From Comamonas odontotermitis (GTDB lineage Bacteria > Pseudomonadota > Gammaproteobacteria > Burkholderiales > Burkholderiaceae_C): a stretch of 64,000 bases of DNA. The stretch is from NCBI RefSeq assembly GCF_020080045.1, contig NZ_CP083451.1:3025001-3089000 (forward strand), read 5' to 3'. The notes under the pieces were generated by a model that saw nothing but the letters and a program-made list of their open reading frames with translations, had not been told where the DNA came from and searched no databases. The position numbers were made by a program, and so were the translations under genes. The number at the start of each line of letters is the position of its first letter. Position 1 is the first letter of the stretch. Of the stretch, positions 2,119 through 14,252 are shown in pieces.

Positions 2119-3471
2119 CTATACCAGCGCCTCCGTATCTGCGTTTCGCATCCGTGACGCCGGAAATACCACCACGAATTCCGACCCCTTGCCCAGGGTA
2201 CTGCGGATCTGCAGCTGCGCGCCATGCCGCTGCAGGACGTGCTTGACAATCGCCAACCCCAGCCCGGTGCCACCAGTGTCGCGCGAGCGGCTGCGATCCA
2301 GGCGATAAAAGCGCTCGGTCAGGCGAGGAATATGCTCCGGTGCAATGCCCGGGCCTGTATCCACCACGCTGAAGCGGCCCGTGCCGTCTGCCTGGCGCAC
2401 AAACTGCACCGTGATGTCTCCGCCTGCGGGCGTGTAGCGCACCGCGTTGTTGACCAGGTTCGACAGAGCGCTTTGCAGTTCGTTGCCTGCGCCAGCCACC
2501 TCCAGCCCAGCTTCATCGAGCGACTGCATCTGCGGAAAATTCAGACGCAGAGGCTTGTCTCCATCCTTGGCGATCATGCGTGCGAGGCCATGCGCATCCT
2601 CCTCGCAGCGGCGCATCAGGCTGCGCACCCCCACCCATTCGTTCAAGCTGGGCGGAGGATTACCCTCCAGGCGCGAGAGGGTCAGCAAATCCGCCACCAG
2701 GCTTTGCATGCGCTGCGCCTGGTTGGACATCAAGGCCAGGTACTGCGTGCGTTCCTCGCTGCTGAGCGGCAGGGTCTGCAGGGTTTCGATAAAGCCTGTC
2801 AGCACCGTCAGCGGCGTGCGGATCTCGTGCGATACATTGGCAACGAAATCGCGCCGCATGGCATCGGCCAGTTCGATCGATGTCACGTCGCGCGAGAGCA
2901 GCAGCTTGCGGTTCCCTTCGTACGGGAACATCTGCACGGACAGTTTCAGCGGGCTGGTGGCGCGCACCACCGGGCTCATCAGCACCACATCCCTGCTGAA
3001 ATCATTGGCAGCAAAATAGCCTGCGAATTCCGGAGCGCGCACCAGATTGGAGATGAGCTGCATGTGGTCGCGCTGCAGATCAAAGCCGAAATGCTCGCAG
3101 GCAGTCTGGTTGCACCATTCGATATGGCCTTGTGCATCCAGAAGCACCACACCGTTGGGGGATGCCTGCAGCGCGGTCAGCACCTGCTGCAATTGCGCCA
3201 CCGCCTGCTGCGCCTGCTTCTCATGCTGACGCAGCAGCCGGCGCGCCCGGTCCACCGCCTCTCCCCACACGCCATACAGCTGCGGAGGACGCTGCAGGTC
3301 ACCTTGCTTGAGCCAGGAAACCACCTTGTTGCCACGCCAGAGGTCTGCAACAAACCAGCACCAGGCCCCCACCAGGGTGGCAACGAGTGCACCGGGCATC
3401 TGCCCCAGCCACCAGCCCAGCGATGCGCCGACGATCTGGAACAACAGAAAACTGACAATGCGAAACAGCAT
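2119..3471 (-). CDS. phoR: Phosphate regulon sensor histidine kinase PhoR
   Basis: 450 residues. Two closely spaced N-terminal membrane helices (about 1-45) without a large periplasmic domain, a PAS-like region (about 95-200), a HisKA domain with phospho-acceptor His215 in FVANVSHEIRTPL, and an HATPase domain with the N box near 331-351, DTGPGIA near 373 and GGTGLGLAIVKH near 402. PhoR autophosphorylates under phosphate limitation, relays to PhoB, and is held inactive by the PstSCAB-PhoU complex. It is last in pstSCAB-phoU-phoB-phoR, 66 bp after phoB. The order and domain layout make this call secure. Confidence 0.96.
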   Translation of the reverse strand: MLFRIVSFLLFQIVGASLGWWLGQMPGALVATLVGAWCWFVADLWRGNKVVSWLKQGDLQRPPQLYGVWGEAVDRARRLLRQHEKQAQQAVAQLQQVLTALQASPNGVVLLDAQGHIEWCNQTACEHFGFDLQRDHMQLISNLVRAPEFAGYFAANDFSRDVVLMSPVVRATSPLKLSVQMFPYEGNRKLLLSRDVTSIELADAMRRDFVANVSHEIRTPLTVLTGFIETLQTLPLSSEERTQYLALMSNQAQRMQSLVADLLTLSRLEGNPPPSLNEWVGVRSLMRRCEEDAHGLARMIAKDGDKPLRLNFPQMQSLDEAGLEVAGAGNELQSALSNLVNNAVRYTPAGGDITVQFVRQADGTGRFSVVDTGPGIAPEHIPRLTERFYRLDRSRSRDTGGTGLGLAIVKHVLQRHGAQLQIRSTLGKGSEFVVVFPASRMRNADTEALV

Positions 3472-3537
3472 GCAGACCTAACTCAAAAAAGAAAAGCTGC
3501 GACAAGCGCAGCATACGAGAAATGGCAAGCCCGCGCA

Positions 3538-4245
3538 TCAAGCGCGTTGCAGGGCCTGCGGTTGTGCAGTGATGCGATAGCCCGCGCCCCGCACCGTCTC
3601 CACCATCACGTTCGCAACGCCCAGTGCTTCGCGCAGGCGCTTCACATGCACATCCACGGTGCGCTCCTCAATGAACACGTGGTCACCCCACACCTTGTCG
3701 AGCAACTGCGAGCGCGAATGCACGCGCTCGGCATGCTTCATCAAGTAATGCAGCAGCTTGAACTCCGTCGGCCCCAGCTTGAGCAGCTCGCCCTGGAAGG
3801 TGACACGGTGCGTTGCCGCATCCAGCACCAACTCGCCGATCGTCACGCTGTCGTTGACCTGCTCGGGAATGCGGCGGCGCAGCACCGCACGGATGCGTGC
3901 CAGCAGCTCCTGCGTGGAAAATGGCTTGGTGATGTAGTCATCCGCACCGGCATCGAGGCCCGCGATCTTGTCAGGCTCATCGCCACGGGCGGTCAGCATG
4001 ATGATCGGGATGCCTTTGACACGGGCATCGGCGCGCCATTTGCGTGCCAGCGACAGGCCGCTTTGGCCCGGCAGCATCCAGTCCAGCAAAATCACGTCCG
4101 GCAGCACGGCATCCAGCTCACGCTGGGCGGCGTCGCCATCTTCCGCCCAGATCGGCAGGCAGCCGTTGTGCCGCAGGTTCACCGCGATCAGCTCGGCAAT
4201 GGCCGGCTCGTCTTCGACAATGAGTACGCGTGGCAATTTTTTCAT
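3538..4245 (-). CDS. phoB: Phosphate regulon response regulator PhoB
   Basis: 235 residues: receiver domain with acidic pocket E11-D12, phospho-acceptor Asp55 in VILLDWMLPG, Thr85 in IIMLTAR and the conserved Lys in DYITKPFS, then an OmpR/PhoB winged helix with the typical LGPTEFKLLHYLM and RTVDVHVKRLREAL segments. PhoB~P binds Pho boxes made of 7-bp direct repeats every 11 bp. Three such boxes are visible in this window (pstS, ppx and olsB). It starts 10 bp after phoU. Confidence 0.97.
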   Translation of the reverse strand: MKKLPRVLIVEDEPAIAELIAVNLRHNGCLPIWAEDGDAAQRELDAVLPDVILLDWMLPGQSGLSLARKWRADARVKGIPIIMLTARGDEPDKIAGLDAGADDYITKPFSTQELLARIRAVLRRRIPEQVNDSVTIGELVLDAATHRVTFQGELLKLGPTEFKLLHYLMKHAERVHSRSQLLDKVWGDHVFIEERTVDVHVKRLREALGVANVMVETVRGAGYRITAQPQALQRA

Positions 4246-4255
4246 ACGTCAAACT

Positions 4256-4957
4256 CTACAAAACACTGGATTCGATTTCGTCCATCGTGGTGTGACGCAC
4301 ATCGATCCCCTTGACCAGGTAGATGATGAGCTCTGCCACGTTCTTGGAGTGATCGCCGATGCGCTCAATGGCCTTGGCCAGGAACAGCAGGTCCAGACTG
4401 GGAGAGATCTTGCGGGGATCTTCCATCATGTAAGTGATGAGTTTGCGGACAAAACCATCGAACTCGGCATCAATCAGATCGTCTTCCTTGAGGATCGAGA
4501 CGGCGGCAGCGGTATCGAGGCGCGCAAACGCATCGAGCGTCTTGCGCAGCAGGCCCGAGGCAAGATCGGCCGCCACACGCAGATCGGTCGTGGGCAGGGA
4601 GCGCGCAGCGCCACTTTCGATGATGGAGCCCACCATGCGCGCCATCTTGTGGGCCTCGTCGCCCATGCGCTCCAGGTTGGCGGTCGCCTTGGAGAACGCG
4701 ATCAGCAGGCGCAGGTCACGTGCCGTTGGCTGGCGCCGGGCGATGATGGTCGACAGTTCATAGTCGATGTCGACTTCCAGCTGGTTCACGCGCTTTTCAG
4801 CCTCGTCAACACGTTGCACGGCCTCCATGCTGAATTGCGAGAGCGCATAGATCGCCTGCTGAATCTGCGATTCCACGAGCCCGCCCAACTCCATCACGCG
4901 GGAGGAGATGTTGTTGAGTTCGCTGTCAAATTGTGAGGATAGGTGTTTTTCAGTCAT
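4256..4957 (-). CDS. phoU: Phosphate signalling protein PhoU
   Basis: 233 residues from the ATG giving MTEKHLSSQFDSELNNISSR. A TTG eight codons upstream is in frame but adds nothing typical of the family, so I used the ATG. Two repeated three-helix PhoU domains are visible, each with metal-binding E/D-rich helices (for example RDLRLLIAFSKATANLERMGDEA and LLFLAKAIERIGDHSKNVAE). PhoU couples the PstSCAB transporter to PhoR and prevents autokinase activation when phosphate is plentiful. It starts 24 bp after pstB. Confidence 0.96.
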   Translation of the reverse strand: MTEKHLSSQFDSELNNISSRVMELGGLVESQIQQAIYALSQFSMEAVQRVDEAEKRVNQLEVDIDYELSTIIARRQPTARDLRLLIAFSKATANLERMGDEAHKMARMVGSIIESGAARSLPTTDLRVAADLASGLLRKTLDAFARLDTAAAVSILKEDDLIDAEFDGFVRKLITYMMEDPRKISPSLDLLFLAKAIERIGDHSKNVAELIIYLVKGIDVRHTTMDEIESSVL

Positions 4958-4981
4958 GCGACTCTTTCCAATTCTGGCCAA

Positions 4982-5782
4982 TTAGCCGAAACGGCCCGTG
5001 ATGTAATCTTCTGTTTCTTTGCGCTGGGGCTTGAAGAACATTTGCTCGGTGGCGCCAAACTCCATCAGGCTGCCCAGATACATGTAGGCAGTGAAGTCAC
5101 TGCAGCGCGCAGCCTGCTGCATGTTGTGGGTCACGATGACGACGGTGTACTCGTCCTTGAGCTCGGCGATCAGCTCTTCCACCTTGGCGGTCGAGATCGG
5201 GTCCAGTGCCGAGCAGGGCTCGTCCAACAGCAGCACTTCTGGCTTGATGGCAATACCGCGGGCAATGCACAGACGTTGCTGCTGACCGCCCGACAGGCCG
5301 GAGCCGCTCTGGCCCAGCTTGTCCTTGACCTCGGACCACAGCGCGGCCTTGCGCAGCGCCCATTCCACACGCTCTTCCATGTCACTCTTGCTCAGGTCCT
5401 CGAACAGCTTCACCCCGAAAGCGATGTTGTCGTAGATCGACATTGGAAATGGCGTGGGCTTCTGAAACACCATGCCGACCTTGGCGCGGATCAGGGCCAC
5501 ATCCTGCTTGCTGGTGAGCAGGTTTTCGCCGTCCAGCACGATCTGGCCTTCCGCACGCTGCTCGGGATAGAGCTCATACATGCGGTTGAAGGTACGCAGC
5601 AGGGTCGATTTTCCGCAGCCCGAGGGGCCGATGAAGGCAGTCACCTTCTTTTCCGGAATCTCCAGATTGATGTTCTTGAGAGCGTGGAACTTGCCGTAGT
5701 AGAAGTTCAGGTCGCGCACCGAAATCTTGGAGTTCAGTGCACTGGCATTGGCTGCATTGGTTTTCGTCAGCATGATGTTCAT
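4982..5782 (-). CDS. pstB: Phosphate ABC transporter ATP-binding protein PstB
   Basis: 266 residues. Walker [10 protein letters not shown] at about 52-60, signature LSGGQQQR, Walker B LLLDEP followed by CSALDP, and the H-loop in IVTHNMQQA. It powers high-affinity phosphate import with PstA and PstC at the cytoplasmic face. The stop is 24 bp before phoU and the start 10 bp after pstA, so it belongs to one pst transcript. Confidence 0.97.
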
Positions 5783-5792
5783 CCATCCGTAT

Positions 5793-6674
5793 TTATTTTT
5801 GACGTGCGAAGGTGCGCGCCAGAATGTTCAGGCCGAGCACGGCGAGCGTGATCAGGAAGACGCCGGCCCAGGCCAGTTGCTGCCAGTTTTCATAGGGGCT
5901 CATGGCGAACTTGAAGATGGTCACCGGCAGGCTCGCCATCGGCTTGGACAGATCGGTATTCCAGAACTGGTTGTTCAGCGCAGTAAAGAGGAGCGGAGCG
6001 GTTTCGCCAGCGATACGCGCCACGGCCAACAGCACACCGGTGATCACACCGGCACGGGCAGCTCGCAGGGTCACCATGCTGATCACCTTCCACTTGGGTG
6101 TGCCCAGGGCATAGGCCGCTTCACGCAGGCTGGATGGCACCAGTACCAGCATGTTCTCGGTCGTGCGGATCACCACAGGAATCACGATCAGCGCCAGCGC
6201 CATCACACCGGCGTAACCGGAGAAGCTCTTGAGCTTGATCACGATCACGGTGTAGACAAACAAGCCGATCACGATGGATGGCGCAGACAGCAGGATGTCA
6301 TTGACAAAACGGGTGACCGAAGCGAGCCAGCCGGTCTTGTTGTATTCGGCCAGGTACACACCAGCCATCACACCGATGGGCGTGCCTACACAGGTCGCCA
6401 TGAACACCATCACCAGCGATCCCCAGATCGCGTTGGCAATACCGCCCGACTCATTGGGCGCAGGCGTCATTTCGGTCAGCAGGGCTACGCTCAGGCCACC
6501 AATGCCCAGGCGCAGGGTCTCCCACAGAATCCAGACCAGCCAGAACACACCAAAGGCCATGGCCGCCAGCGACAGACCGATCGCGATCTTGTTGATGCGA
6601 TTGCGGCCACGGTATTTGGCTGCGCGGATGGTTGCAAGATCCGAAGCCTTGATCAAACGTTCTCCCGTGGTCAT
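5793..6674 (-). CDS. pstA: Phosphate ABC transporter permease PstA
   Basis: 293 residues with six predicted membrane spans and the EAA cytoplasmic loop typical of binding-protein-dependent permeases ([18 protein letters not shown]). It forms the membrane channel together with PstC. Its first bases overlap the end of pstC by 4 bp, an overlap typical of translational coupling. Confidence 0.96.
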
Positions 6675-7696
6675 GCGCGGGCTCCTTCATTCTTTTGCAG
6701 ACGGCTGAGCAGCAGCTTGGAGCAGGCCAGCACAATGAACGTGATGAAGAACAGCGCCAGACCCAGGTAGATCAGCGATGCCTGGTGCAGGCCTTCGCCC
6801 GCTTCCGCAAATTCATTGGCCAGGGCCGAGGTAATGCTGTTGGCCGCCTCAAACAGTGACAGAGAATTGAGTTGGTTCATATTGCCGATCACGAAGGTGA
6901 CGGCCATGGTCTCGCCCAGTGCGCGGCCCAGTCCCAGCATCACGCCGCCGAACACGCCGGTCTTGGTGTAGGGCAATACTACCTTCCACATCACTTCCCA
7001 GGTGGTTGAACCCAGGCCGTAAGCCGATTCCTTGAGGAGCGCGGGCGTGACTTCGAATACATCGCGCATCACCGAGGCGATGAAGGGGATCACCATGATC
7101 GCCAGAATGACACCGGCGGAAAAAATGCCGATGCCCACAGGAGGGCCGGACACCAGGCCTTCCAGCACTGGAATGCCCTTGAACAGGGTTTGCAGAGGCT
7201 GCTGCACATAGGTGGCCAGCAGCGGGCCGAACACCATCAGGCCCCACATGCCATACACGATGGAGGGCACGGCGGCCAGCAATTCAATGGCCGTACCCAA
7301 TGGCCGCTTGAGCCAGACGGGCGACAGCTCCGTCAGAAACAGGGCGATGCCAAAGCTCACGGGCACCGCAATCAGCAAGGCAATGGCCGATGTGGCCAAG
7401 GTGCCGTAGATCATCACCAGGCCACCGTACTGGTTCTGCACCGGATCCCATTCGCTGCGGAAGAAGAAGCCGATTCCATACTCACGGATAGCGGGCCACG
7501 CACCCACGACCAGGGAGCCCATGATCGCCAGCAGCAAAGCCAGGGTCAGCACTGCCGCGCCGCGCGCCAGCAATGCGAACAGGCCGTCGGCGACAGAGTT
7601 GGAAAGCCAGGGCTTTCGCGAAGGAGGCTGGCTGGACTGCATGTCTGCTTTATCCCCCGCGACCGCGCTGTTTTGTACTGGAAAAGATGTCGACAC
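6671..7696 (-). CDS. pstC: Phosphate ABC transporter permease PstC
   Basis: 341 residues from a GTG start with a GGAA ribosome-binding sequence 7 bp upstream. An in-frame ATG at 7642 (19th codon) has its own GGGGGA 10 bp upstream, so the true start is uncertain. Six membrane spans and the EAA loop ([19 protein letters not shown]) identify it as the partner of PstA. It lies 60 bp after pstS, and that gap carries a terminator-like hairpin. Confidence 0.95.
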
Positions 7697-7714
7697 TTGT
7701 GAATTCCATGGAAG

Positions 7715-7742
7715 GTGGAAAAGGCCGCTACCCGAGCGGCCT
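7715..7742 (-). terminator. Hairpin with T-run between pstS and pstC
   Basis: On the minus strand AGGCCGCT and AGCGGCCT pair across a 5-nt loop (stem 7722-7742) and are followed by TTTTCC. It sits inside the operon directly after pstS. Known pst operons often have a partial terminator or RNA-stabilising hairpin here, which makes the binding protein more abundant than the permeases; that function is inferred. Confidence 0.75.
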
Positions 7743-7756
7743 GTGATGTTTGCGAC

Positions 7757-8794
7757 TTACTTGGCTACAACAGCCTTGCCGCCGCTGTCCTTGATGTTGT
7801 TCCAGGACTTGTAGATGATGTCCTTCACGCTCGCAGGCATCGGCACATAGTCCAGGCCATCTGCCGTCTGGTCACCCGACTTGTAGGCCCATTCAAAGAA
7901 CTTCAGCGAAGTGGCAGCCTGCGCTGGCTTGTCCTGGGTCTTGTGCATCAGGATGAAGGTGGCGCTGGTGATGGGCCACGAATCCTTGCCTGGCTGGTTG
8001 GTCAGAATCTGGTAGAAGCTCTTGGTCCAGTCGGCACCGGCGGCGGCGGCCTTGAAGCTGGTGTCATCGGGGCTGACAAAGTTGCCTTCTGAATTCTTCA
8101 GTTGGGCAAAGGTCATCTTGTTCTGCTTGACGTAGGCGTACTCCACATAGCCGATGGAGTTGGGCAGGCGGCCCACATACGCTGCAACACCTTCGTTGCC
8201 CTTGCCGCCGGCACCCGTAGGCCAGTTCACGGCAGCGCCTTCACCAACCTTGTCCTTCCACTCGGTGTTGACCTTGGAGAGGTAGTTGGTGAAGCCGAAG
8301 GTCGTGCCCGAACCGTCAGCACGGCGCACCGGGGCAATGGCAGCGTCAGGCAGTGCCACGCCAGGATTCAGGGCGGTGATGGCAGGGTCGTTCCACTTGG
8401 TGATCTTGCCCAGGTAGATATCGCCCAGCACTTGGCCCGACAGCTTCAACTGGCCCGGATTGATGCCCTTGATGTTGACCACGGGCACAATGCCACCGAT
8501 CACGGTGGGGAACTGCACCAGGCCCTTCTGGTTCAACTCATCGTCCTTCAATGGCATGTCGGAAGCACCGAAGTCCACCGTCTTGGCATCGATCTGCTTG
8601 ATACCAGCGCTGGAGCCCACGGACTGGTAGTTGATCTTGACGCCAGTTGCCTTGTTGTAATCGGCTGCCCACTTGGAATACAGCGGAGCGGGGAAACTTG
8701 CGCCCGCGCCAGTGGCTTCTTCCGCCTGAACCTGGGCAAATGCACCCGCAGCAACCAAACCAGCAACCAGCACTCGAATCGCGGACAGTTTCAT
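7757..8794 (-). CDS. pstS: Phosphate-binding periplasmic protein PstS
   Basis: 345 residues from the ATG at 8794, which begins a clear Sec signal peptide (MKLSAIRVLVAGLVAAGAFA, cleavage near AQVQA-EE). The longer in-frame extension upstream would bury this signal and covers the promoter, so I rejected it. Mature-protein motifs include GAGASFPAPLYSKW, the phosphate-contacting DFGASDMPL and RRADGSGTTFGFTNYLSK. It captures phosphate for PstCAB. First gene of the pst operon, directly behind a Pho box. Confidence 0.97.
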   Translation of the reverse strand: MKLSAIRVLVAGLVAAGAFAQVQAEEATGAGASFPAPLYSKWAADYNKATGVKINYQSVGSSAGIKQIDAKTVDFGASDMPLKDDELNQKGLVQFPTVIGGIVPVVNIKGINPGQLKLSGQVLGDIYLGKITKWNDPAITALNPGVALPDAAIAPVRRADGSGTTFGFTNYLSKVNTEWKDKVGEGAAVNWPTGAGGKGNEGVAAYVGRLPNSIGYVEYAYVKQNKMTFAQLKNSEGNFVSPDDTSFKAAAAGADWTKSFYQILTNQPGKDSWPITSATFILMHKTQDKPAQAATSLKFFEWAYKSGDQTADGLDYVPMPASVKDIIYKSWNNIKDSGGKAVVAK

Positions 8795-8830
8795 GAAAAC
8801 TCCTGTTGGTAATGAAACGCAATGGAGTGG

Positions 8831-8864
8831 ACTGTAAAAAACCTTTATGACATTGATATGACAT
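8831..8864 (-). promoter_or_regulatory. Pho box and -10 of the pstS promoter
   Basis: On the minus strand ATGTCAT-ATCA-ATGTCAT (8864 down to 8847) are two identical 7-bp half-sites 11 bp apart, the layout of a PhoB box. Exactly 10 bp further is TACAGT (8836-8831), a good -10. This is the class II arrangement in which PhoB replaces the -35 element. It lies 53 bp upstream of the pstS start. Confidence 0.88.
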
Positions 8865-8920
8865 ATTCCGTCATATTCCCCATGGAAATCAATCGATGCC
8901 CCTGAGCAACAAAGAGGCAA

Positions 8921-8954
8921 TTGTCATATTTCAGTCATGCAAAAGACTTAATTT
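8921..8954 (+). promoter_or_regulatory. Pho box and -10 of the ppx promoter
   Basis: On the plus strand TTGTCAT-ATTT-CAGTCAT (8921-8938) gives two half-sites 11 bp apart, followed after 10 bp by TAATTT (8949-8954) as a -10. It points away from pstS towards the exopolyphosphatase gene, so the two Pho boxes form a divergent regulatory region. The predicted start near 8961 leaves a leader of about 175 nt before ppx. Confidence 0.82.
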
Positions 8955-9134
8955 CAAAGCTTTGTCAGCATAGGGAATGGCTTTGCAATGGACAACGGTC
9001 GCGGTGCTATGCTCCCTGCCCTGGAGTGCTTTTGCTGGATCGCACATCTGGCGGACATGGTGTGCTGGTGAGGCCCGCCACGCCGATTTCCTTGCAATTT
9101 GTAAAGCGCACTCCTATTTTTGCAGACTTGATTG

Positions 9135-10655
9135 ATGACGACACCTATGCTCGATGGAACCCTGCTTGCCGCCGTGGATCTGGGATCCAACAGTTTTCGC
9201 CTGGAGGTTGGGCGCTACGCATCCGGCCATATCGAACGCGTGCAGTATTTCAAGGAGATGGTACGCCAGGGCGCGGGCCTCGACGAAGCGGGCAACCTCT
9301 CGGTGGAGTCCATGCAGCGCGGCTGGGATTGCCTGGCGCGCTTTGCCGAACGCCTGAAAGGCTTTCCGCCCGCCCAGGTGCGTGCCGTGGCCACCCAGAC
9401 CCTGCGCGAAGCCAAGAACCGCGACATCTTCATCCAGCAGGCCAACCAGATCCTGGGCTACCCGATCAGCGTGATCTCCGGCCCCGAGGAGGCCCGGTTG
9501 ATCTACCAGGGCGCCGCCCATTCGCTGCCGCCGTCCGACGAGCGCCGGCTGGTCGTGGACATCGGCGGGCGCTCGACCGAGTTGATCCTGGGCCAGCGCT
9601 TTCTGACCGAGCGTGTGGCCTCCTACCCCGTGGGCAGCGTGGCCTGGTCGCTGCGCTATTTTCCCAATGGCGAATTCACCAAGGCCAGCCTGAGAACGGC
9701 GCACATTGCTGCGCAGGCCGTCATGGAAGAGGCCGCCCTGCACTTCGCCCCCAACAGTTGGGACATGGCTTACGGCACATCAGGCACAGCCAATGCAATT
9801 GCGGATGTGCTGGCGGCTTATGGCGGTGAGCCCGATGTGGTGCGCCGCGAGCAGCTGTACTGGCTGTGTGAACAGTTGCTGGCCGCAGGCAACGCCGCAA
9901 ACATCAGGCTTGAAGGCCTGAAGGAAGAGCGCCGCGCGGTGATTGGTGGCGGCGTGACCGCGCTCTGCGCCATTTTCGATCTGCTGCAGATCGATGAATT
10001 GCGCATTGCCAGCGGAGCACTGCGCCAGGGTTTGCTGCGCGACATGGTGCAGCACGAGGAATATTCCGATATCCGCAACCGCACCATCAGCACCTTGGTG
10101 GAGCGCTACCAGGTCGATGGCGCGCAAGCGGCCCGCGTTCAACGAACCGCCGCCATGCTGTTTGAACAGGCCAGACGCTACACCGGCGTGACCGACCCAG
10201 TGAAACTGAAATCCCCCATGCTGGACTGGGCCAGCCAGTTGCATGAGATGGGCTGCCTCATCTCGCACAACGACTACCACCACCATGGCGCCTATGTGCT
10301 GAGCCACAGCGATGTGCCGGGCTTTACCCAGACCGAGCTATCGCACCTCGCCGCCTTGGTGCTGGCCCAGCGCGGCAAGCTGCGCAAGGTCGAGGGCTTC
10401 TTGCAGAACCCTGAGTTTGCACTGGAGCTGTTGTGCCTGCGCCTGGCCACCGTGCTGTGCCACGCCCGCCGCAATCCAGAGCTGGAACAGCTGAATCTGC
10501 GCGACAAGCCTGAGAAATGGTCGCTCAAGGCCCTGGCCGGCTGGTCGGAGCAGTTTCCACAATCCGCCTATCTGCTGGGCGAAGAGGTGCTCGCCTGGCA
10601 GAAGACCCCATACGTGTTCCAGTTCAAGCAGGCAGGCAGTATTCTTGCAAAGTGA
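9135..10655 (+). CDS. ppx: Exopolyphosphatase / pppGpp phosphohydrolase (Ppx/GppA)
   Basis: 506 residues from the ATG at 9135; an ATG four codons later (9147) is also possible, and no strong ribosome-binding site distinguishes them. N-terminal ASKHA ATPase fold with AAVDLGSNSFRLEVGRY, VISGPEEARLIYQG and VVDIGGRSTELILG, and a C-terminal HD-like helical domain (SQLHEMGCLISHNDYHHHGAY). The enzyme releases phosphate from polyphosphate ends and in some members converts pppGpp to ppGpp. A Pho box faces it from the pstS side, supporting the polyphosphatase role. Confidence 0.93.
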   Translation: MTTPMLDGTLLAAVDLGSNSFRLEVGRYASGHIERVQYFKEMVRQGAGLDEAGNLSVESMQRGWDCLARFAERLKGFPPAQVRAVATQTLREAKNRDIFIQQANQILGYPISVISGPEEARLIYQGAAHSLPPSDERRLVVDIGGRSTELILGQRFLTERVASYPVGSVAWSLRYFPNGEFTKASLRTAHIAAQAVMEEAALHFAPNSWDMAYGTSGTANAIADVLAAYGGEPDVVRREQLYWLCEQLLAAGNAANIRLEGLKEERRAVIGGGVTALCAIFDLLQIDELRIASGALRQGLLRDMVQHEEYSDIRNRTISTLVERYQVDGAQAARVQRTAAMLFEQARRYTGVTDPVKLKSPMLDWASQLHEMGCLISHNDYHHHGAYVLSHSDVPGFTQTELSHLAALVLAQRGKLRKVEGFLQNPEFALELLCLRLATVLCHARRNPELEQLNLRDKPEKWSLKALAGWSEQFPQSAYLLGEEVLAWQKTPYVFQFKQAGSILAK

Positions 10656-10768: not shown

Positions 10769-11728
10769 TCAGCCCAGGTCTACCGGTGCCACAGCGCCAC
10801 GACCAGAGAACACCCCGGTCAGGTTGCCAATGAACTGATCCACACTGGCCTGCGTCGCCTCGGGCGACCAGCCGGCAACATGGGGCGTGATCAGTATATT
10901 GGGCAGGTCGATCAGCGGCTCGGGCCGGTGCGGTTCACTCTCGTACACATCAATGCCCGCACCTGCAATACGGCCTTCCTGCAGTGCAGCAGCCAGTGCT
11001 TCGGTATCCACCACCGAGCCGCGCGCGATATTGATCAGATAGCCCTGCGGACCCAGCGCCCGCAACACCTCCGCATTGACCAGATGGCGCGTGCCAGCAC
11101 CGCCCGGTGTCGCGCACACCAGCACATCAGCCCAGGCAGCCAGCGCCAGTACCGAGTCAAAGTACGGCTGCTGCACATCGGGCTTGGGCTTTCGGTTGTG
11201 GTAGCCCACCGGCATGTCGAAACCCGCAGCGCGTCTGGCGATCTTGAGGCCGATGTGGCCCAGACCGATGATGCCCAGCTTTTTGCCCGATACGCCCGGC
11301 GGGTGCGGAATCGTGAAACGATCCACCCCGGCCCTCGCCTGCTGGTCCAGCGAGCGGAAATTACGCATCGTGGCCAGGATGAGGCCAAAGGTGTGGTCGG
11401 CAACGCTGGTGTCGTTGGTGCCCGCCCCGGTGGCCACGACGGCGCCGCGCGCCTTCAAGGCATCCAGCGCCAGCCCTTCATAGCCCGCGCCCAGGGTGCA
11501 GGCCAGGCGCAGGCGTGGCATGCGGGCCACCTCGTCGGCGCTCAAACCGATGGAGCCGATGGTGAGCACCGCATCCACCTCGGCCCCCTGCTCTGCGACA
11601 GCCTGCGCACGTTGCGCCGCCGTGGGCGCGTAGATGACCGTCGCATGCTGGCGAATCTGGTCCAGATGCTGCTCGGCCATGGGATTGAAGACCAGCAGCG
11701 TGATCGGGGAATGCGAGGACTGGCTCAC
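10769..11728 (-). CDS. D-2-hydroxyacid dehydrogenase (glyoxylate/hydroxypyruvate reductase type)
   Basis: 319 residues. NAD(P)-binding Rossmann motif GIIGLGHIG near the middle, the catalytic Arg in INIARGSVVD, the Glu in GAGIDVYESEP, and the His in ITPHVAGWS. These define the D-isomer-specific 2-hydroxyacid dehydrogenase family; the closest functional types are GhrB-like reductases of glyoxylate or hydroxypyruvate, but substrate is not decided by sequence. Two adjacent GTG codons (11731 and 11728) could start it. AAGGAG lies 5 bp before the second, so I chose 11728. Confidence 0.88.
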   Translation of the reverse strand: MSQSSHSPITLLVFNPMAEQHLDQIRQHATVIYAPTAAQRAQAVAEQGAEVDAVLTIGSIGLSADEVARMPRLRLACTLGAGYEGLALDALKARGAVVATGAGTNDTSVADHTFGLILATMRNFRSLDQQARAGVDRFTIPHPPGVSGKKLGIIGLGHIGLKIARRAAGFDMPVGYHNRKPKPDVQQPYFDSVLALAAWADVLVCATPGGAGTRHLVNAEVLRALGPQGYLINIARGSVVDTEALAAALQEGRIAGAGIDVYESEPHRPEPLIDLPNILITPHVAGWSPEATQASVDQFIGNLTGVFSGRGAVAPVDLG

Positions 11729-11749
11729 CACAACTCCTTCATTGATAGC

Positions 11750-11787
11750 AAAAGAGCCGCTTGCAACGTATGCAAGCGGCTCTTTTG
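11750..11787 (-). terminator. Strong terminator after olsB
   Basis: Long perfect hairpin: AAAAGAGCCGCTTGCA pairs with TGCAAGCGGCTCTTTT around a short loop. It has T-runs on both strands, but the minus-strand gene olsB ends just upstream, so it most likely ends that transcript before the dehydrogenase gene. Confidence 0.9.
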
Positions 11788-11875
11788 ATTATGAAGGCCT
11801 TTTGACGACAGGGTTGTTCCCTGCCACACCATAGCCAGAGCCCCCTGGCAGGGCAGTTGCCGCATGCAGCGGCCA

Positions 11876-12697
11876 TCAACCCAGAAAGTGCTTGCGATAG
11901 CGTGCCGGCAGGCGATCAAGCTGCATCAGCATGGGCAGATCGGCAGTGTTGAAATCCGGATCCCAGGCTGGCGCGCCGATCACCTCGGTGCCCACGCGCA
12001 GATAACCCTTGATGAGTGCTGGCGGCTCCACTTCGACCTGGTCATCCAGTTGATCCAGTGGCAGCGGCAGGCGTGGCGTGACCGCGTACTCCGTCGATAC
12101 CTGCCTCTTGGCCTGCAGCTGGCGCCAGATGCTCGCTGCCGCATCGCCGCTGACGATGCCGTTGTGCCACATCGGAATGCTGGCGCAGCCCATCATGACA
12201 TCGAGCTTGTTGCGCTGCATGAAGCTGGCCAGAGCCCCCCACAGCGCCATGATGACGCCACCCTGGCGGAAATCGGCATGTACGCAGCTGCGTCCCAGCT
12301 CCACCATGCGCGGGCGCAGCGCATCGATGGCAGTGAGATCAAATTCGCCATCGGAGTATGTACGCCCGGCACGCAGGGCCTGGGCGGGCGTGAGCAGGCG
12401 GTAGGTGCCGATCACCTGCTGCGTGCTGCTGTTGCGCACCAGCAGGTGCTCGCAGTAATCGTCAAAACCATCCACATCGTGGCCGGGCGTAGTGGTTTGC
12501 AGCTGCGCTCCCATTTCACCGGCAAATACCTGGTGGCGTAGGCGCTGGGCTTCGCGCACTTCGTCCAGATGGCGCGCCCAGGAAACCTCGATATCAGCCA
12601 ATACCGCTGCAGCGGGCAAGGCAGAGGCATGCTTGGCAGCAGCCGGGCTGGAGACCAGGATGTCGGCTGCGCTGGAGAATTCGGGCTTGTTGTGCAT
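11876..12697 (-). CDS. olsB: L-ornithine N-alpha-acyltransferase OlsB (GNAT family)
   Basis: 273 residues from the ATG at 12697, which has GGAG 7 bp upstream; the 23-codon in-frame extension lacks family features. Family motifs visible are RLRHQVFAGEMGA, GFDDYCEHLLVR, VIGTYRLL and ELGRSCVHADFRQGGVI, matching the acyl-ACP-dependent enzymes that make lyso-ornithine lipid, the first step to phosphate-free ornithine lipids at the inner membrane. No OlsA partner lies next to it here. Four Pho half-sites stand upstream, which fits induction when phosphate is scarce. The alternative is another OlsB-like GNAT acyltransferase with a different amine acceptor. Confidence 0.85.
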   Translation of the reverse strand: MHNKPEFSSAADILVSSPAAAKHASALPAAAVLADIEVSWARHLDEVREAQRLRHQVFAGEMGAQLQTTTPGHDVDGFDDYCEHLLVRNSSTQQVIGTYRLLTPAQALRAGRTYSDGEFDLTAIDALRPRMVELGRSCVHADFRQGGVIMALWGALASFMQRNKLDVMMGCASIPMWHNGIVSGDAAASIWRQLQAKRQVSTEYAVTPRLPLPLDQLDDQVEVEPPALIKGYLRVGTEVIGAPAWDPDFNTADLPMLMQLDRLPARYRKHFLG

Positions 12698-12806
12698 GGC
12701 AGGGCTCCTCAATCGCTCTGCCGCCCTTTGCTGCACACCAGCCGCTATGCCGCGCCTCGTGCCCACACCGGGCTATCACAGAGCCCCGCCAGTTTCTCGC
12801 CGCCGC

Positions 12807-12846
12807 ATGACAGTGCGATGTGCAAATCATGACGCTTGCATGACAT
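12807..12846 (-). promoter_or_regulatory. Tandem Pho boxes upstream of olsB
   Basis: On the minus strand four 7-bp units follow each other with exact 11-bp spacing: ATGTCAT, GCGTCAT, TGCACAT and CTGTCAT (12846-12840, 12835-12829, 12824-12818, 12813-12807). Three fit the PhoB half-site well; the third is degenerate. No good -10 stands 10 bp beyond the last unit (GAAACT at best), so the promoter is not fully defined. The array lies about 110 bp before the olsB start. Confidence 0.78.
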
Positions 12847-12886
12847 GGCACCTATGCAACACCTTCAAAAGAGGGCTGCCTGCACG

Positions 12887-12906
12887 GGTCTGTACAGGTA
12901 CAGACC
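12887..12906 (-). terminator. Hairpin directly after glmM
   Basis: GGTCTGTAC and GTACAGACC form a perfect 9-bp inverted repeat with a 2-nt centre just behind the glmM stop. There is no T-run, so it may be an RNA 3' end stabiliser or a weak terminator. Confidence 0.5.
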
Positions 12907-12917
12907 AGTCACTCCGC

Positions 12918-14252
12918 TCAGGACTGGCGCGCTACTTCCGCCAGCTGTTCGGCGCAGCGGCTCGCCTGGGCAGCATCAAAGGCTTCCACCATCACACGCA
13001 GCAGCGGCTCGGTGCCGCTTGCGCGGATCAGCACACGCCCCTGGCCCGCAAAGCGCTCGGTGATGTCGCGCTGCAGATCGGCCAGCTTCTGGTTTCGGCT
13101 CCAGTCCTGTCCCGGCTGCAGGCGCACGTTCAGCAGAACCTGCGGGCACAGGTCGACGCCCTTGAGCTGCTCGGCAATGCCCTGCTGGCGACTCACACAG
13201 GCTTGCAGCACCTGCAGCGCGCTGATGAGGCCGTCGCCCGTGGTGTGCTTGTCCAGCGCCAGCAGGTGACCCGAGCCTTCACCGCCCAGTATCCAGTTGC
13301 GACGTTGCAGCTCTTCCAGCACATAGCGGTCGCCCACCTTGGCACGCACCAGCTCGATGCCTTGCGCACGCAGGGCCGCCTCCACGGCCAGATTGGTCAT
13401 CAGGGTGCCGACAACGCCTGCTATCTTTTCGCCACGGTGCAGGCGATCCATGGCCATCAGGTAGAGCAATTCGTCGCCGTTGAACAGGCGGCCATTGGCA
13501 TCCACCAGTTGCAGTCGGTCGGCGTCGCCATCCAGCGCCACGCCGACGTCCGCATTGTTGGCGCGCACGGCACGCACCAGTGCTTCGGGGCGGGTAGCGC
13601 CCACGCCCTGGTTGATATTGAGACCATCGGGGTTGCAACCGATGGTGATCACATCGGCCCCCAGCTCGTGGAAGACCTTGGGCGCTATCTGGTAGGCAGC
13701 GCCATGCGCCGCATCCACCACCACCCGCATCCCGTGCAGAGACAGCTGGTTGTCGAAGGTGCTCTTGCAAAATTCGATATAGCGGCCAGGGGCATCATCG
13801 AGACGGCGCGCCTTGCCCAACTGTGCAGACTCCACCCACACCGGGCTTTCGGCCAGCGCGGCCTCTACCGATTCCTCCCAGGCATCGGGCAGCTTGGTGC
13901 CTTCCGCGCTGAAGAACTTGATACCGTTGTCCTCGAAAGGATTGTGGCTGGCACTGATGACCACGCCCAGGCTGGCACGCAAGGCCCGCGTGAGGTAAGC
14001 CACACCGGGCGTGGGCAATGGCCCAAGCAGCACCACATCAACACCTGCGGAGTTGAAGCCCGATTCCAGCGCACTTTCCAGCATGTAACCCGAGATGCGC
14101 GTGTCCTTGCCGATCAGCACCGTCGGGCGATCCTCGCCCCGCCGCAGCACACGGCCTACGGCGTGACCGAGGCGCAGCACGAAATCAGGCGTAATGGGCG
14201 ATTTACCGACCGTGCCGCGAATTCCATCGGTTCCAAAATACTGGCGTGGCAT
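12918..14252 (-). CDS. glmM: Phosphoglucosamine mutase GlmM
   Basis: 444 residues, the normal length. Begins [16 protein letters not shown]; the catalytic phospho-Ser is in [18 protein letters not shown]; the metal loop is in [10 protein letters not shown]; the sugar-binding GGEGSGH and the phosphate-binding [12 protein letters not shown] near the C-terminus complete the alpha-D-phosphohexomutase set. It makes glucosamine-1-phosphate for peptidoglycan and LPS precursors. It follows folP as in E. coli. Confidence 0.97.

Follow-up and report, generated by a model that had tools for sequence, protein, structure and literature searches.

A predicted four-half-site Pho promoter upstream of olsB, conserved in the family of Comamonas

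Positions 12807-12846 on the minus strand of the window (the whole stretch of 64,000 nucleotides analysed, from a genome of 4.83 Mb), together with the hexamer GAAACT that follows them, are very probably (roughly 87%) a real and conserved phosphate-starvation promoter from which PhoB would drive olsB. PhoB binding, the start site, induction at low phosphate and the lipid product at this gene are what we infer from the comparisons below. The promoter seems ordinary in kind, with a conserved contrast in design to the pstS promoter. The features concerned are collected in Table 1.

Table 1. Promoter elements and phosphate-related genes in the window
Feature	Position	Strand	Remarks
Half-site 1, ATGTCAT	12840..12846	-	CA at positions 5-6 in 100/105 family regions
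Half-site 2, GCGTCAT	12829..12835	-	CA at positions 5-6 in 79/105 family regions
Half-site 3, TGCACAT	12818..12824	-	weak by E. coli consensus; CA at positions 5-6 in 92/105
Half-site 4, CTGTCAT, closest to the -10	12807..12813	-	CA at positions 5-6 in 98/105
-10 hexamer GAAACT	12791..12796	-	exactly 10 nt past half-site 4; nAnnnT register kept
GAGGAG, Shine-Dalgarno-like	12705..12710	-	ATG 7 nt downstream; from sequence
olsB-like acyltransferase gene, 273 aa	11876..12697	-	PF13444, 120.9 bits (cut-off 22.4)
phoB, presumed activator	3538..4245	-	TIGR02154, 325.4 bits (cut-off 296.2)
phoR, presumed sensor kinase	2119..3471	-	TIGR02966, 388.4 bits (cut-off 334.2)
pstS Pho box, comparison promoter	8847..8864	-	TACAGT at the same 10-nt spacing
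Pho box facing ppx, comparison promoter	8921..8938	+	TAATTT at the same spacing
glmM	12918-14252	-	
pstSCAB-phoU-phoB-phoR	2119-8920	-	
ppx/gppA-type gene	9132-10655	+	

Four half-sites upstream of olsB

Read from 12846 to 12807, the minus strand is ATGTCAT GCAA GCGTCAT GATT TGCACAT CGCA CTGTCAT, exactly as the initial annotation had claimed: 7-bp half-sites in direct repeat with an 11-bp period. Its further proposal that these are two tandem PhoB boxes is upheld by matrix scores and by conservation. An ad hoc half-site score, with weights taken from the E. coli PhoB half-site consensus CTGTCAT, places the site first among all four-half-site runs on both strands of the window (36.9; runner-up, shifted copies excluded, 30.9). 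A four-half-site matrix built on relatives with the site's own sequence omitted gives 25.0 for olsB and 6.9 for the next site in the window. A two-half-site PhoB matrix, made from 29 pstS promoters of relatives and likewise omitting the genome's own, ranks pstS first in the window (24.1), followed by the box facing ppx (plus strand, 8921; 19.0), olsB (18.4) and a next site at 10.1.

Across the whole genome, the loose exact pattern GTCAY-N6-GTCAY was not enriched (26 matches against 32 in the backward control), and a two-half-site match alone was therefore not taken as proof. The stricter TGTCAT-N5-KKTCAT, with one mismatch allowed, was enriched (44 against 8), and the four-half-site pattern, when A and T were also required at their -10 positions, matched twice in 4.83 Mb and never in the control.

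Half-site 3 agrees with CTGTCAT at only three of seven positions and alone would not count. Its atypical form is explained by the same register deviating across the family and among the nearest relatives: the usual family form is nnGACAY or nnGCCAY (position 4: A 67, C 28 and T 5 of 100), and the genome itself and its seven nearest relatives carry TGCACAT (six) or TGAACAT (two). These column counts omit the five of 105 family regions that score 8 or less, which the -10 register counts below retain.

Since the genome holds 17 matches to PF00486, the OmpR/PhoB DNA-binding domain, another OmpR-family regulator might be thought to act on the 11-bp repeats in place of PhoB. We consider this highly improbable, as a matrix trained solely on pstS promoters finds olsB, as half-site, spacing and distance to the -10 equal those at pstS, and as PhoB itself is encoded about 8 kb from the olsB promoter. 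The DNA-binding domain of this PhoB can be closely aligned with its E. coli counterpart (1gxp), RTVDVH and TVRG-GYR included; our assignment of the recognition-helix residues in it is presumptive.

Conservation in genus, family and order

The family set comprised the best 80 of 591 confirmed named loci and the best 30 unnamed places among 249 of 299 genomes. All were oriented on olsB; upstream sequence was usable in 109 of the 110 (L129, with 8 nt only, was left out), and 105 distinct regions stood after four duplicates had been dropped. The pstS matrix scores at least 10 in 73 of the 109, compared with 14 on the other strand, one in reversed sequence and one after shuffling (a single plain shuffle per region). 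The CA dinucleotide at half-site positions 5-6 recurs in all four registers (Table 1), and the registers flanking them are empty (CA in 3/105 before and 7/105 after). The in-register counts were helped by an alignment fitted to the half-sites; the empty flanks and the held-out -10 are unaffected by this.

That -10 test used regions aligned on the half-sites alone, with the -10 columns held out of the score. The hexamer nAnnnT lies 10 nt past half-site 4 in 97 of the 105 family regions, as against 0-10 of 105 at each of 24 other shifts. The same register is found in 19 of 20 hand-picked regions from 19 genomes of more distant family members, the exception being one of two copies in its genome. 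Within the genus Comamonas, all 30 scored loci, drawn from the 41 of 53 genomes that had a match, combine nAnnnT in register with a score of at least 15 (reversed, 0/30). Outside the family, in 40 hand-picked regions representing 37 families of the order (one or two each, from 96 matched genomes), nAnnnT is present in 34; half-site scores are lower there, reaching at least 15 in 17/40, with both controls at 0/40. The count is 34 rather than the 35 of a wider scan because the scan range was limited, and the extra region (L238, score -10.3) is plainly a chance match. The regional sets overlap in part: L040 and L303 share one promoter, and genome G128 is represented by both L183 and L323.

Loss of the half-sites upstream of orthologues had been named in the initial annotation as an outcome that would overturn its reading; the element is conserved before olsB orthologues in genus, family and order. 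Conservation is not complete. The -10 is absent from 8/105 family and 6/40 order regions, and three loci of the C. koreensis type (L040, L303 and L307) have decayed half-sites 1 and 2 (TTTTAAT, GTGTAAT).

Two further observations concern individual family loci. Genome G127 has two olsB copies (L200 and L201), one with a four-half-site promoter (24.4) and the other without (7.9). At L058, L073, L081 and L119, a Pho-like box also lies on the opposite strand upstream of olsB (pstS matrix 17-20), and these boxes are perhaps divergent Pho promoters.

A weak but conserved -10

At PhoB-activated promoters the box replaces the -35 element and the -10 lies about 10 nt past the last half-site. A clear -10 had been described as missing at olsB; this holds only in the sense that the hexamer is weak and lacks the consensus T, for a conserved hexamer does occupy the exact register, at the same distance as at pstS. 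GAAACT scores below 0 by the pstS matrix, and sigma-70 promoter prediction called nothing in the olsB upstream region. Among the 97 family regions with the hexamer, its first base is C in 57, G in 37, A in three and T in none; in the 19 more distant ones it is C in 11, G in seven and T in one. T thus begins the -10 in one of 116 family olsB regions, compared with 29 of 29 pstS promoters. In other families of the order it does so in 27 of the 34 regions with the hexamer, seven lacking it. As a non-T first base is common to the olsB regions of the family, these alignments indicate that the olsB -10 is weak by inheritance.

The weakness of the -10 and of half-site 3 would also fit a promoter that still binds PhoB but has decayed in this strain, with olsB read mainly from elsewhere, for example by read-through from glmM, and no terminator-like site was found in 11700-13100. 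Decay is nevertheless very unlikely, because both oddities are conserved and decay would not preserve them: nAnnnT is kept throughout most of the family, and one or other of the two half-site 3 forms is present in all seven nearest genomes as well as this one.

The gap between glmM and olsB contains a perfect inverted repeat, GGTCTGTAC-CT-GTACAGACC, at 12887-12906 with no T run, which may be a terminator or an operator. A possible structured RNA in the stretch from glmM to the promoter was rejected (z -1.64; 15 of 200 shuffles fold equally well), and an Rfam scan of the olsB leader (12550-12950) gave no match.

Two promoter designs under one regulator

For comparison, the best two-half-site box was chosen by the ad hoc score in each of 30 pstS loci of the family. 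These boxes have TAnnnT, mostly TAnAGT, 10 nt downstream, and all 29 promoters of the matrix have T, A and T at positions 1, 2 and 6 of the hexamer. The pstS and olsB promoters are thus alike in their 11-bp half-sites and in the 10-nt distance to the -10. They differ in that pstS has two strong half-sites with TAnnnT, whereas olsB has four weaker ones with mostly [C/G]AnnnT. Mean half-site scores are 9.7, 8.2, 8.2 and 8.8 at olsB (104 of the 105 rows, one left out) against 10.6 and 10.5 at pstS and 3.3 for a random 7-mer, a contrast that is somewhat flattered since the pstS sites were picked by the same score. When the two registers immediately upstream of the pstS box were scored, each contained a further half-site of at least 8 in only 2/30 loci.

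The second four-half-site match in the genome (G000:C1:2136960-2137012, L243), with GATACT in the -10 register, precedes phnS2, a 2-aminoethylphosphonate-type transporter gene (502.9 bits, cut-off 392.75), such genes being expected targets of PhoB. Among the upstream regions of phnS2 in relatives and in the genome itself (30 of 37 listed matches, own included), the score is at least 15 in 6/30, against 1/30 in the reversed control, and a -10 is in register in 3/30. Together with the pstS counts, this shows that Pho promoters of the family do not in general have the four-half-site build.

Another candidate Pho target is a gene for a phosphocholine-specific phospholipase C (L016, 3-1518, minus strand; TIGR03396, 731.4 bits, cut-off 580.25), which has a Pho box followed by TAGAGT. 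Phospholipid breakdown by this enzyme may be induced jointly with olsB.

Proximity to the pst genes

The initial annotation had seen in olsB, pst-pho and ppx one local phosphate programme. Proximity to pst is indeed common, but the promoter tracks olsB and not the pst neighbourhood. In a non-random set of 44 genomes with both genes among the listed places, pstS and olsB lie on one contig in 28 and on different contigs in 16; 22 of the 28 same-contig pairs are within 20 kb (median 7.8 kb) and six are farther apart. In G128, G289, G174 and G298, olsB and pstS share a contig but are separated by 1.2-3.9 Mb in its coordinates, and the promoter is still present. The promoter is therefore not conserved simply because pst is near, and a local programme is not what maintains it.

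The other neighbour, glmM, occurs in the flanks (up to 3 kb, some shorter) of eight of the 80 named family olsB loci (best 80 of 591). Comamonas has two kinds of olsB: one, in eight genomes (83-100% identity), is adjoined by glmM in the window and in 7/7 other loci; the other, in 33 genomes (59-63% identity), is adjoined by glmM in none of the 22 loci tested. Both kinds (loci L301-L329) have the promoter, and exchange or replacement of olsB within Comamonas is possible.

On the pst side of the window, the Pho box facing ppx (8921-8954 with its TAATTT) is strong and lies nearly 200 nt ahead of the likely ppx start, which implies a long leader.

The OlsB-like enzyme and its lipid partners

The description of the product as an OlsB-type acyltransferase holds at the level of sequence. 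It is the sole PF13444 match in the genome, far above the cut-off (Table 1), and its best NCBIfam models are both OlsB; its scores of 152.9 and 143.1 bits fall below the equivalog cut-offs of 350 and 320, respectively, and we therefore term the gene OlsB-like, by its sequence. The model names, RHOCB and BRUA, suggest that the models were built for Rhodobacter and Brucella. The homologue P0001 of Comamonas odontotermitis is also 273 aa long (97% identity over 100%).

Three PF01553 acyltransferases are encoded in the genome, of which L181 comes nearest to OlsA (126.8 bits against a cut-off of 300). A Pho promoter was sought at the three genes and rejected: on the sense strand, the four-half-site model gives at most 6.5 and the pstS matrix at most 3.7 (for L180, the scan covered 111 nt ahead of the ORF).

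The promoter might be as described and yet serve a product that is not, or not only, ornithine lipid, with one or more other amino acids acylated. The scores below the OlsB cut-offs would allow this, as would a sequence search that found no OlsB relative of solved structure, and the A. baumannii OlsB makes both ornithine and lysine lipids, according to the accessible text of PMC11828411. We regard such a product as unlikely, given that the two top NCBIfam models are OlsB, that the glycine enzyme model GlsB reaches only 21.5 bits, far below them, and that an OlsA-like acyltransferase is encoded in the genome.

Discussion

For the PhoB-driven olsB promoter, we propose the following course of events. 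At low phosphate, PhoR would phosphorylate PhoB, which would occupy the four 11-bp half-sites head-to-tail as a tandem pair of dimers and recruit sigma-70 RNA polymerase from half-site 4 to the weak -10. The olsB mRNA would start near 12784, about 87 nt ahead of the ATG. OlsB would then N-acylate ornithine or a similar amino acid. The lipid would be completed by a second acyltransferase, for which L181 is the OlsA candidate and whose gene lacks its own Pho box, and the finished aminolipid would substitute for phospholipid.

Control of olsB by phosphate is known in kind from Acinetobacter baumannii (PMC11828411) and Burkholderia s.l. (PMC7814305), as far as the accessible parts of these papers report. 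Formation of ornithine lipids under phosphate limitation is likewise described for Sinorhizobium in the accessible parts of PMC7814305 and PMC12186959. In A. baumannii, olsB is PhoR-dependent, induced at low phosphate and preceded by a Pho box, and the separate olsA has no Pho box and is not phosphate-regulated, an arrangement like the one predicted here; the box is given there against the two-half-site consensus CTGTCATNNNNCTGTCAT (accessible text of PMC11828411). Control of olsB is experimental in that organism, whereas in Comamonas it is predicted from sequence. In Burkholderia s.l., which are related bacteria with the same kind of gene and regulator, Pho boxes were predicted upstream of olsB in 21/43 genomes, a number that rose to all 43 when another matrix was used (data not shown by the authors); the matrix is an 18-bp one of two half-sites, and the accessible text does not describe four half-sites, a -10, or Comamonas and its relatives (PMC7814305). 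The accessible portion of PMC4415409 presents PHO boxes as direct repeats of 11 nt to which PhoB, in contact with sigma-70, binds head-to-tail. Like olsB, E. coli ugp has multiple PHO boxes, that is, several 11-nt direct repeats for PhoB; it is a different gene, and a family-wide degraded -10 is not mentioned in that portion (PMC4415409). A search of the open-licence literature found nothing on ornithine lipids in Comamonadaceae or Variovorax, or on a Pho box in Comamonas, and the four-half-site build of olsB may be undescribed, as far as that literature, accessible in part, shows.

The comparisons made here give strong evidence that phosphate-controlled aminolipid synthesis extends to the family that includes Comamonas, Variovorax, Acidovorax and Rhodoferax.

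On the idea that PhoB promoters are induced in the order of their affinity, weak sites combined with a weak -10 would mean late induction of olsB. A tentative reading, against which we still put the odds somewhat, is that olsB has a threshold Pho promoter, in which four weak half-sites act cooperatively and selection against T keeps the -10 weak, so that onset would be steep, would come in deep starvation and would follow that of pstS. Since most families elsewhere in the order retain T as the first base of the -10, this reading would place the rise of the threshold in the home family, with perhaps independent rises in a few more (the 7/34 regions without T). If this reading is true, olsB would be silent while pstS fires early, and lipid exchange would come after uptake. 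The family thus offers two natural promoter designs under one regulator in the same genomes, with differences that are conserved and countable, and these pairs make it possible to test directly how the build of a promoter relates to its place in the order of induction.
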